64,000 nt of DNA, from the NCBI GenBank assembly GCA_024641505.1, contig JAHECY010000002.1, positions 1 through 64,000 of the forward strand, in the 5' to 3' direction. The notes under the pieces were generated by a model. It was not told where the DNA came from and did not search any database. It was given only the letters and a program-made list of their open reading frames with translations. Positions 18,273-21,976 of this stretch are shown here, piece after piece; positions within the stretch are counted from its first letter, which is position 1, and every line of letters begins with the position of its first letter. A program made the position numbers and the translations under genes. This DNA is from Gammaproteobacteria bacterium. GTDB taxonomy: Bacteria > Pseudomonadota > Gammaproteobacteria > SG8-11.

Positions 18273-18359
18273 GCCGGGATGGCGGAACTGGTAGACGCGC
18301 CAGACTCAAAATCTGGTGAGGGTAACCTCGTGGGAGTTCGATTCTCCCTCTCGGCACCA
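18273..18359 (+). tRNA. tRNA-Leu (anticodon CAA)
   Basis: The acceptor arm GCCGGGA pairs with TCTCGGC, with one G-U pair. The anticodon stem CCAGA/TCTGG encloses the loop CTCAAAA, giving anticodon CAA (reads UUG). A long class II variable arm (GAGGGTAACCTC) and the T-arm loop TTCGATT are present. The CCA end is encoded at 18357-18359. I found no repeat of the 3' end of this gene elsewhere in the window, so there is no sign that it is used as an integration site here. Confidence 0.97.
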
Positions 18360-19084: not shown

Positions 19085-20668
19085 ATGATATATACCAAAA
19101 ACTCATCCGCGCTGTTTATTATCGGCGTGATCATGCTGGCGATCTGGTATCTCACGGATGCCGGATTGCTGGCAGGTTATCTTGAACATCTGGGGCACGG
19201 CAAACCCTACGGACATACCAATGAATTAACGACGATGCCGCTTTACTTCGGCGTTATCGCCGCAGTGGTTGGACTCTGGCAATGGTTCGGTAAACATTCC
19301 GCCGGCCATTGGGATTACTATTCGTCGTCAATTGCCGGCGGCATGTTTATTCTGCTCATCGCCATGCTGGTACGCTGGTTCATCGCACCGGAAGTCGCTG
19401 TCGGCAGCATGCTGCTGGGCAAAGTCGGCGATACCGGCGCTTATATCCATACCTTGCTCGGACTCAACTATGTGGTCATGGGCATCGTCACGGGGATCAT
19501 TATCGTCAATGTGTTCAAGGTACCCGCCTGGGCGGAGAACGGTGTCCGCTTGTCGCGCCTCGGCTTGAAAACCGGTGTCATTCTGTTGGGCACGCTTTAT
19601 AGCGCTGCGGAACTGAAAAATCTGGGCGGTCTCTCCATCATCATGATCGGCTTTTTTGTATTGGGTTCCGTCGGCATCGTGTTGTGGATTGGCGCACGGC
19701 GCAATATCTCCAACTCCATGGGCGGCGTACTGTCGGCGGGCATGGGGGTATGCGGGGTATCCGCCACGGTCGCAGCCGCGCCGGTGGTGCAAGCCAAGTC
19801 AGTGGAAATAGCCTATACCATCGGCACCATCCTGCTGTGGGGCGTGGGCTGTATGTTCGTTTTCCCCATCATCGGTAATCTGCTGGGCATGGGCCATGTG
19901 CAATTCGGCGCCTGGGCCGGCACCGGCATCCTGAACTCCGCTCAAGTCGCGGGCGCGGCCCTTGCGTTCCAGCCTGACGGCATCGAAACTCTGAAAGTCG
20001 CGGAAATCTTCAATATCACGCGCGTGTTGATCCTGCCGATCATCGTGCTGTGGCTGGCGGTGTGGTATGTGCGGCGGGAAGGTGAAAACGCCCAAAAGGT
20101 GAATGTTGGCGCGGTAATTTTCGCGAAATTTCCCGTCTTTGTGCTTGGTTTCATCCTCATGTTCGCGCTGTCCACGACCGGTATCTTCGCGCCAGCCAAT
20201 CATTACAAGGGCAAATACTTTGGCAATACCGCGGAACAGGGTTTCAAGGATAAGAGTCTGCTCACTGCCGAACAAAAAGCCACACTGCAAGCGGAAAGCA
20301 GCAAGGTGCAACGCGTAGATCAGCAAGCCGCCCTGAGTCGCCTCATCGAGAATGGTAAAGTCATGAGCATCGATGATGATGATGTGTTGCGGGGTCTGGT
20401 CAATGCCAAAGTGCTGTCCAAGGACGCCGATCACCTTCTGACCGGCGCGCACAAAGCCGTGCGTCATACGGCGAAAAAGGTCAAGGCGTTCAGAAGCTGG
20501 ATTACCTGGTTGTTCGCGTTTGGCTTGGTTGGACTGGGCATGCAGATAACCGTCGGCGCCATGAAACAGGCGGGCGGTCAACCGGCGGTCATCGGCGGTA
20601 TCGTCGGCCTGTTGAAAGCCGTGCTGTCCCTGATTGTTGTTATGATGCTGGTTTCTGAAACCGTTTGA
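19085..20668 (+). CDS. Putative sulfate exporter family (PSE/YeiH-like) permease with a large hydrophilic insertion
   Basis: This polytopic membrane protein of about 527 residues has the YeiH/PSE-family core: LGLKTGVILLGTLYSAAEL, GGVLSAGMGVCGVSATVAAA, a PVVQAKSVEIAYTI stretch and GAWAGTGILNSAQVAGAAL. Members are predicted anion exporters; the sulfate assignment rests on few cases. Unlike the compact 340-residue YeiH, it carries an extra N-terminal region. It also has a charged segment of about 100 residues (around 375-475, including FGNTAEQGFKDKSLLTAEQ and SIDDDDVLRGLVNAKVLSKD) inserted before the last two helices. ATG 19085 follows GAGGGG; a GTG six bases upstream is also open. A small membrane protein follows. 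Confidence 0.85.
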   Translation: MIYTKNSSALFIIGVIMLAIWYLTDAGLLAGYLEHLGHGKPYGHTNELTTMPLYFGVIAAVVGLWQWFGKHSAGHWDYYSSSIAGGMFILLIAMLVRWFIAPEVAVGSMLLGKVGDTGAYIHTLLGLNYVVMGIVTGIIIVNVFKVPAWAENGVRLSRLGLKTGVILLGTLYSAAELKNLGGLSIIMIGFFVLGSVGIVLWIGARRNISNSMGGVLSAGMGVCGVSATVAAAPVVQAKSVEIAYTIGTILLWGVGCMFVFPIIGNLLGMGHVQFGAWAGTGILNSAQVAGAALAFQPDGIETLKVAEIFNITRVLILPIIVLWLAVWYVRREGENAQKVNVGAVIFAKFPVFVLGFILMFALSTTGIFAPANHYKGKYFGNTAEQGFKDKSLLTAEQKATLQAESSKVQRVDQQAALSRLIENGKVMSIDDDDVLRGLVNAKVLSKDADHLLTGAHKAVRHTAKKVKAFRSWITWLFAFGLVGLGMQITVGAMKQAGGQPAVIGGIVGLLKAVLSLIVVMMLVSETV

Positions 20669-20683
20669 TAAGGAGGATTTACC

Positions 20684-20806
20684 ATGAGTGAAGATAAATT
20701 TGACCGCGGCTCCGCCTTATCCATTTTCGGGAGCGACCGCAGAGAGGACCTTATGGCCCTGATATTTTCCCTGGCTATCGCACTGTTCATTTACATGGCG
20801 TACTGA
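20684..20806 (+). CDS. 40-residue membrane protein downstream of the PSE permease
   Basis: An ATG at 20684 follows a near-perfect AAGGAGG and opens a 40-codon frame: MSEDKFDRGSALSIFGSDRR, then EDLMALIFSLAIALFIYMAY. It has a charged N-terminal half and a single C-terminal membrane helix. It starts 15 bases after the permease stop and is followed by a strong terminator, so permease and small protein form a two-gene operon. The architecture recalls the tiny accessory subunits of some secondary transporters, but I know of no named family for this one. Confidence 0.8.
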   Translation: MSEDKFDRGSALSIFGSDRREDLMALIFSLAIALFIYMAY

Positions 20807-20836
20807 ACGCCGATAGCACAACTGTGTAATGTGTTG

Positions 20837-20872
20837 GTGTCCGCGCAAATCGACAAGCGCGGACACTTTTTT
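20837..20872 (+). terminator. Rho-independent terminator of the permease operon
   Basis: A perfect 10-base stem GTGTCCGCGC (20837-20846) / GCGCGGACAC (20857-20866) with a 10-base loop is followed by TTTTTT (20867-20872). It ends the permease and small-protein transcript just before the universal stress protein gene. Confidence 0.93.
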
Positions 20873-20895: not shown

Positions 20896-21369
20896 ATGAA
20901 CTCTACCCACAATGTGTTACTTGCCAGTCATGGCACCGAAGGCGCCATCGCCGCCGAAAATGCTGCCTTGGACGTATGCGCTGAGGGCGCGATGCTGAGA
21001 CATTTCATCGTGGTCCCCGATTTCTGGAAAGGCATGACTGGCGATGACTGGCTGAATAACGGCAGCACACGGGATCAGTTCACCCGGTATCTGGAGACCG
21101 AACTGAGCGCCGAGATAGACACCCATCGCGCCCGTGTGCGCGGCAAGGCGGAAGCGCGCAATCTCCGGTACAGCAGCGAAATCGTGCTCGGGGAACCGGA
21201 CAAATGCCTGTTGGCTGCCTGTGACCAGGGTAACTATGATGTCGTCGTCATGGGATCACCCCGCCCCAAAGGCAAACCGGGGCTGCGATCACGCATGGCG
21301 ACAAAATTACTGAACAAGAAATTATGCGTACCGGTAATGGTGGTGCCATACCCTGATGCAGAATCCTGA
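20896..21369 (+). CDS. Universal stress protein (UspA family)
   Basis: This 157-residue single-domain protein has the Usp fold: an N-terminal beta strand with VLLASHGTEGA, then a long helical region, and the C-terminal VVMGSPRPKGKPGLRSRMATKLL followed by VPVMVVPYP. The glycine motif resembles the ATP-binding G-x2-G-x9-G pattern but is not a perfect match (GSPRPKGKPGLRSRM), so nucleotide binding is uncertain. It overlaps the next gene by 14 bases, implying translational coupling. Confidence 0.85.
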   Translation: MNSTHNVLLASHGTEGAIAAENAALDVCAEGAMLRHFIVVPDFWKGMTGDDWLNNGSTRDQFTRYLETELSAEIDTHRARVRGKAEARNLRYSSEIVLGEPDKCLLAACDQGNYDVVVMGSPRPKGKPGLRSRMATKLLNKKLCVPVMVVPYPDAES

Positions 21370-21976
21370 ACCGGGTGCGGCCACCGCAGCATCGGAAGAC
21401 GCAGCCTGGGCAAGCATCAAAACTCCCCTTACCGCCACCCAATTACAGGAGTTCTGCCGGGATATCGAGCGCCTGTATCGCATCAACCCCTTCATAGAAT
21501 TCAGCACCTGGCAACAACTCGATGCGTACCGGTACCGTGTCATCGGGCGTAATCTCAGCCAAACGCCGGGATTCGACTTCGATTATACCCTCACCGCCAG
21601 CGAGCAGGGTGATGCATTGCTGGTCACCTATTCCCAGGGACTGAAGACCTCCACGCGCTTTCAATTCGAAGACGACCCGCTGGGTTCGCGCTTGACCATC
21701 ATCGACGACTACGCCGGAGCATCTCCGGAGGATCGCAAACAACGCCTCGGAGAAGTGGACAAAAGCCTGATCAAGTGGGCCGGTGATCTGCAGCTCTATC
21801 TGGTGATGTGGCGTCGCTGGTCGTGGCTCGCACCCTGGCGCTGGTATATGCGCCGCATCTGGCAACCCCTGAAACCCACCGCCCGGCGCATTCTTTACAT
21901 GTTGTTGTGGATATCACTGGTGGAAGTCGCACTGCTGATATTGGGTTTTACCGTCTACTGGCTTGAGTTCACCTGA
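21356..21976 (+). CDS. Uncharacterised protein with C-terminal membrane helix
   Basis: The protein has 206 residues. The first ~150 look soluble, with alternating strands (DFDYTLTASEQGDALLVTYSQG, FQFEDDPLGSRLTIIDDYAG) that could form an SRPBCC-like alpha/beta fold, but this is only an impression. A tryptophan/arginine-rich stretch (VMWRRWSWLAPWRWYMRRIW, about 143-162) follows. One membrane helix (ILYMLLWISLVEVALLILGF, about 176-195) closes the protein. The start overlaps the universal stress protein gene, so the two are probably co-expressed. I do not recognise a named family. Confidence 0.75.
   Translation: MQNPEPGAATAASEDAAWASIKTPLTATQLQEFCRDIERLYRINPFIEFSTWQQLDAYRYRVIGRNLSQTPGFDFDYTLTASEQGDALLVTYSQGLKTSTRFQFEDDPLGSRLTIIDDYAGASPEDRKQRLGEVDKSLIKWAGDLQLYLVMWRRWSWLAPWRWYMRRIWQPLKPTARRILYMLLWISLVEVALLILGFTVYWLEFT

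Follow-up and report, generated by a model that had tools for sequence, protein, structure and literature searches.

A conserved 40-residue membrane protein encoded behind one branch of PSE-family permeases, very probably as their dedicated partner

Gene organization of the permease locus

The window, meaning the whole stretch of 64,000 nucleotides analysed here, contains on its forward strand a gene for a PSE-family permease of 527 residues (19085-20668). Its assignment to the family, and within it to clade A, comes from a PF03601 match, a permease tree and the helices of an AlphaFold model. PF03601 is matched with an E value of 3.8e-43 and 148 bits, well over the cut-off of 24.5. Unlike YeiH, the permease stays below the cut-off of TIGR00698 (67.5 bits against 232.6) and carries a long insertion around residues 363-463. 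By these profile scores it is a PSE member, yet not a YeiH protein according to the NCBIfam cut-off. PSE members with 9 and with 11 helices are described in excerpts of PMC8396727. A PSE permease was present in 182 of the 398 phylum-sample genomes, and a plasmid search for the permease gave one distant match in 72,556 records. The genome of the window has a second PF03601 match, located outside the window, and a tRNA gene, the sole Rfam find, lies upstream of the permease on the + strand (18273-18356).

After the permease stop codon (TGA, 20666-20668) and a gap of 15 nt, a small ORF begins on the + strand in the same frame (20684-20806). Its translation, MSEDKFDRGSALSIFGSDRREDLMALIFSLAIALFIYMAY followed by a stop, is a protein of 40 residues with a charged N-terminal half, a conserved RGSALSIFxSDRxED core and one hydrophobic C-terminal TM helix; the mean Kyte-Doolittle value of residues 23-40 is 2.33. 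In the sequence, a Shine-Dalgarno AAGGAGG (20670-20676, + strand) lies 7 nt before the ATG. The initial annotation had proposed a 40-residue membrane protein with this ribosome binding site and a 15-base spacing behind the permease, and all three features were confirmed. Of 91 homologous loci, 78 have a GGAG, GAGG or AGGA core ahead of the start and 13 have none. Profile searches of Pfam and NCBIfam found no family that covers the small protein.

An intrinsic terminator, formed by a hairpin and a T run, separates the small ORF from the following gene (about 20836-20872, + strand). The hairpin, GGTGTCCGCGC-N10-GCGCGGACACT and then TTTTT, is found 29 nt after the small-ORF stop, and the 89-nt stretch that includes it folds at a z score of -2.88. 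A simple hairpin scan did not list it because the scan limited loops to 8 nt and the loop here has 10. Similar structures occur in 35 of 90 loci, compared with 0.2 in shuffled sequences, and a second criterion gave 27/83 loci against 2/83. Several of the stems share a GGTGCCCGC-like core. The recurrence of the terminator suggests that the two halves of the cassette may differ in expression level. The strong terminator claimed to follow the small gene immediately does exist as a hairpin with a T run, but it does not close the gene cluster, which continues past it with two further genes.

The first of these encodes a Usp-like protein of 157 residues (20896-21369, + strand; PF00582 E value 2.2e-4), whose 22.2 bits fall just under the PF00582 cut-off of 24. 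The second encodes a protein of 206 residues with a START/SRPBCC fold (21356-21976, + strand), identified by AlphaFold and Foldseek. Its model has a mean pLDDT of 93.0 and shows the helix-grip fold, and Foldseek retrieved START-like entries (best E value 9.7e-6; 116 matches at E up to 0.001). At the level of sequence families, Pfam gave no relevant match for it. The START-fold protein appears to have a C-terminal hydrophobic membrane helix of its own.

This arrangement recurs in other genomes. Among 65 loci that carry the small gene and at least 1300 nt of downstream sequence, a Usp-like gene follows in 60 and a START gene in 59. The usual order is permease, small protein and Usp-like protein, to which the START-fold protein is added in the long clade (A). 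Six genomes lack an adjacent START gene; four of them have it elsewhere and two gave no match. No further neighbour gene is common to more than 10 of 80 loci. The initial annotation described an operon of permease and small protein. The adjacency stands, but the unit is usually larger, since it also holds the Usp-like and START-fold genes.

Conservation of the small gene and its linkage to the permease

To see whether homologous permeases are accompanied by the frame, genome contigs were scanned with the permease. The scan kept 80 loci, 4 of which are truncated at the permease end or shortly beyond it, leaving 76 readable. A homologous small ORF was found 8 to 384 nt downstream of the permease in 73 of these. 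The exceptions are two Marithrix loci (L086 and L087) and L104, where the permease match spans residues 1-404 only. All three genomes have the small gene elsewhere, that of L104 behind a second permease match. A lack of such conservation, which the initial annotation had named as grounds for rejecting its claim, was thus looked for and not found. In a class sample of 369 genomes, the 18 readable clade-A loci, window included, all have the small ORF. In the phylum sample the small protein was detected in 10 genomes (E up to 0.01), in each case with an adjoining permease. Many carriers are sulfur- and ammonia-oxidising bacteria, Nitrosomonas included. When the 40-residue protein served as a single query among 36 relatives, its own genome alone matched, apart from three hits at E 0.18 to 0.58 that are probably fortuitous. 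In genome G218, where the permease runs off the contig, the genome search gave no small-protein match.

The small proteins of clade A have 39 to 55 residues, according to the starts used, and a hydrophobic C-terminal helix. We aligned 83 distinct sequences, without L090, whose start is ambiguous. Of their 3403 pairs, 3402 had pN below pS, and the median dN/dS over the 637 less saturated pairs was 0.22, which indicates purifying selection and supports the translation of the small ORF claimed for the window. Both this result and the adjacency to the permease make a chance ORF unlikely. M1, G9, L12, F15, D18, R19, E21, D22 and L26 are invariant in the 83 sequences. The RGSALSIFxSDRxED motif is near-invariant and has the lowest pN/pS of the protein (0.156), compared with 0.404 in the TM part and 0.486 in the N-terminus. 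Conservation along residues 16-40 follows one face of a helix (peak at 95 degrees, p 0.0002), and this periodicity is also found in the TM part alone (residues 23-40, p 0.0016). Packing of the helix against a partner would be expected to produce such one-sided conservation.

The small ORF is almost certainly a real, conserved gene. As its place behind the permease and one strict motif are kept in many bacteria, we consider it very probably a gene of easily overlooked size and the dedicated partner of a putative anion exporter.

A diverged small protein in a sister clade of permeases

The profile search also hit a 49-residue ORF behind a PSE permease of 398 residues that has no insertion (L119, E 7.0e-5). 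In the clade to which this short permease belongs (B), a small protein of the LFxDDRxED-TM type and a Usp gene are present in 9/9 loci, and the Usp neighbour matches PF00582 with 44.2 bits, above the cut-off. A nine-row alignment shows F15, D18, R19, E21, D22 and A25 in common between clade B and the window protein. Clade B reaches the genus of the window itself (locus L025), where genome G001 has the clade-B version. The small proteins of two clade-B loci (L199 and L200) have 80 residues, the TM helix being followed by a Pro/Ala-rich tail, and start 27-28 nt after the permease stop.

Elsewhere in the family, a pattern scan found a small ORF of the LFxDDRxED type in 0 of 61 other PSE loci, a count that strongly diverged or other-strand versions would escape. 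The negative set was composed of the 30 best matches of the phylum PSE search and 30 genomes with weaker matches, intermediate scores being left out. In the permease tree, clades A (25 rows) and B (9 rows) fall on one branch with an SH-aLRT of 80, a moderate support for which the program warned of long branches. A Fisher test of the 34 rows bearing the small protein against the 61 other rows was dropped, because the 34 had partly been picked for that protein and one of them, L086, has none next door. The association of the small protein with a PSE ancestor probably dates from a single event that preceded the insertion, an order that we infer.

The insertion in the permease does not account for the pairing: the short clade-B permeases have no insertion and still come with a diverged version, which indicates that the partner is the permease clade and not the insertion. 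The functional tie to the permease that had been claimed is itself supported by the restriction of the small protein to one PSE branch, and the two may form a physical complex.

Possible role of the small protein

The permease probably transports anions, given that its relative YeiH is required for sulfite resistance in Salmonella (excerpts of PMC12880088), a finding that favours a sulfur oxyanion as substrate. RuBisCO was found in 18 of 20 clade-A genomes (the match in G048 being weak) against 164 of the 349 others of the class sample (Fisher p 1.3e-4, uncorrected for kinship). Of 50 further cassette genomes, however, 36 have it, and among the sampled alphaproteobacterial-type genomes of the phylum search only 1 of 7 does. 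For dsrA, 24 of 32 cassette genomes compare with 15 of 24 RuBisCO-bearing controls that lack the permease (p 0.38), and none of five Nitrosomonas has it; soxB exceeded its cut-off in 18/32 cassette genomes and in 19/24 controls. Autotrophy or sulfur oxidation as sole explanation was rejected, since neither RuBisCO nor dsrA covers all carriers. Bicarbonate and sulfite/sulfate both remain candidate substrates.

We propose that the small protein, with its single membrane pass, serves the neighbouring PSE permease as an accessory subunit or regulator, a reading to which we give a probability of roughly 0.6. It is based on the link to one permease branch, on the one-sided conservation of the helix and on the precedents AcrZ and MgtS, small proteins that modulate transporters (excerpts of PMC10710835). 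The initial annotation had likewise drawn a comparison with small subunits of other transporters. The protein resembles them in being short with one TM helix, and in its conserved genetic link to one transporter family: 73/76 clade-A loci and 9/9 clade-B loci against 0/61 other PSE loci.

The charged N-terminal part would be cytoplasmic, and the helix would cross the membrane to end on the periplasmic side. This topology is suggested by the charges and by the Pro/Ala-rich tail behind the helix in the two long clade-B versions. The conserved helix face may pack against a permease helix, and the invariant DRxED, at the cytoplasmic border of the membrane, could steady or gate an elevator-type transporter. 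Alternatively, DRxED may pass on a signal from the Usp-like protein. In an AlphaFold pseudo-fusion of both proteins, the permease had a mean pLDDT of 71.5 and the small part, at 28-51, was left unplaced on its short linker. The C-terminus of YeiH is predicted to be periplasmic (excerpts of PMC12880088); with a like permease C-terminus and a cytoplasmic N-terminus of the small protein, a short linker would force a wrong geometry, so that the model speaks neither for nor against binding. A fold search with the fusion model returned nothing at E up to 0.001. Its best match was CitS of the 2HCT family (E 0.12), in keeping with the kinship stated in excerpts of PMC8396727.

The presence of a Usp-like neighbour points to a possible regulatory input, by analogy with TeaD, a Usp-superfamily protein encoded beside the ectoine transporter TeaABC and said to modulate it (excerpts of PMC9006882). 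The likeness lies in a Usp-superfamily gene beside a transporter. As a TRAP transporter, TeaABC has no relation to PSE, and those excerpts mention no DRxED or START counterpart. It is tempting, if tentative, to propose an adaptor whose helix rides on the PSE permease while DRxED receives the Usp-like protein, joined in the long clade by the membrane-anchored START protein; anion flux would then be opened or locked according to the state of the cell. Since the small protein is found in the short clade as well, such a system would predate the permease insertion. As a regulated elevator transporter of a new kind, it would parallel SbtA-SbtB with three or four parts. SbtA-SbtB is similar in pairing an anion transporter of the CPA/AT clan with a dedicated regulator (excerpts of PMC8396727 and PMC10710835). 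It differs in that SbtB is a soluble PII-like protein, whereas the protein described here is a membrane helix, and transport of bicarbonate is hypothetical.

The main rival to the subunit or regulator reading holds that the small protein serves mainly to anchor or dock the Usp-like (and START-fold) protein at the membrane, its contact with the permease being indirect. We regard this as rather unlikely, but several observations speak for it, the first two of which also weigh against direct action on the permease. In the two Marithrix genomes the small gene lies away from the permease and yet beside a START-fold gene in 3/3 copies and a Usp-like gene in 2/3. The presumed cytoplasmic motif is more conserved than the TM part, and what clades A and B have in common is permease, small protein and Usp. 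The union of A and B, with its moderate support and long-branch warning, likewise weakens the subunit or regulator reading. Against a mere anchor, 5/65 clade-A loci keep the small gene by the permease with no detectable downstream Usp-like gene, the conserved terminator often parts the small gene from the Usp-like gene, and the START protein appears to bring its own membrane helix. In Marithrix, the START-fold genes near the moved small genes are multiple (L121, L123, L130, L131 and L133-L135), some of them in pieces or with an internal stop, as if decaying.

Quite unlikely, in our opinion, is a stability factor that shields the permease from membrane proteolysis, as MgtS and MgtU do, or aids its insertion into the membrane, and takes no part in transport itself. 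There are precedents for such small proteins (excerpts of PMC10710835), and the small size, the 15 nt between stop and start and the one conserved helical face would fit. Nothing specific speaks against this reading, but the Usp-like partner would be left unexplained. Finally, short hydrophobic peptides behind genes can be chance ORFs or toxins and this one adjoins a terminator, but that the ORF has no transporter tie, being a leader or coupling peptide that serves expression, a small toxin or a product of chance, is very improbable in view of the purifying selection in 3402 of 3403 pairs, the invariant residues from G9 to L26, the retention of the gene after separation from the permease and the lack of any Pfam or NCBIfam match of note; chance is already ruled out by the selection, the conserved residues and the retention.

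Small TM partners of transporters are a known kind of protein; AcrZ, MgtS and MgtU share with the present one a length below 60 residues, one TM helix and the tie to a transporter (excerpts of PMC10710835 and PMC7267776). The Pfam and NCBIfam searches found no sequence relation to them, their transporters belong to other families, and the small protein here differs by its operon-like cassette with Usp-like and START proteins. Nor is this company typical of PSE/YeiH, as 60 other PSE loci lack the small protein. Among the matches listed in a search of open-licence PMC papers, none described a small protein associated with PSE permeases. Within the reach of these searches, the family is new, as are its PSE partner and its company of Usp-like and START proteins.

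PSE/YeiH permeases are widespread and poorly understood, and a conserved, unnamed subunit or regulator of one branch provides a way into their workings in sulfur and ammonia oxidisers. The functional unit has so far been read too narrowly, and reconstitution of the permease alone might fail in these organisms if the small protein is left out. Being absent from Pfam and NCBIfam, the family could be added to annotation models.

Other PSE types have neighbours of their own. A third type (L027, a frame of 477 residues) has a Usp-like gene 57 nt after its stop and no DRxED small protein. In a subfamily with frames of 512-579 residues (L188, L189, L190 and L192), the stop is overlapped (start at -4) by a cysteine-rich ORF of about 71-74 residues, pieces of which also occur in L191 and L193. 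The L189 copy has no Pfam match, and this ORF is possibly another small partner.
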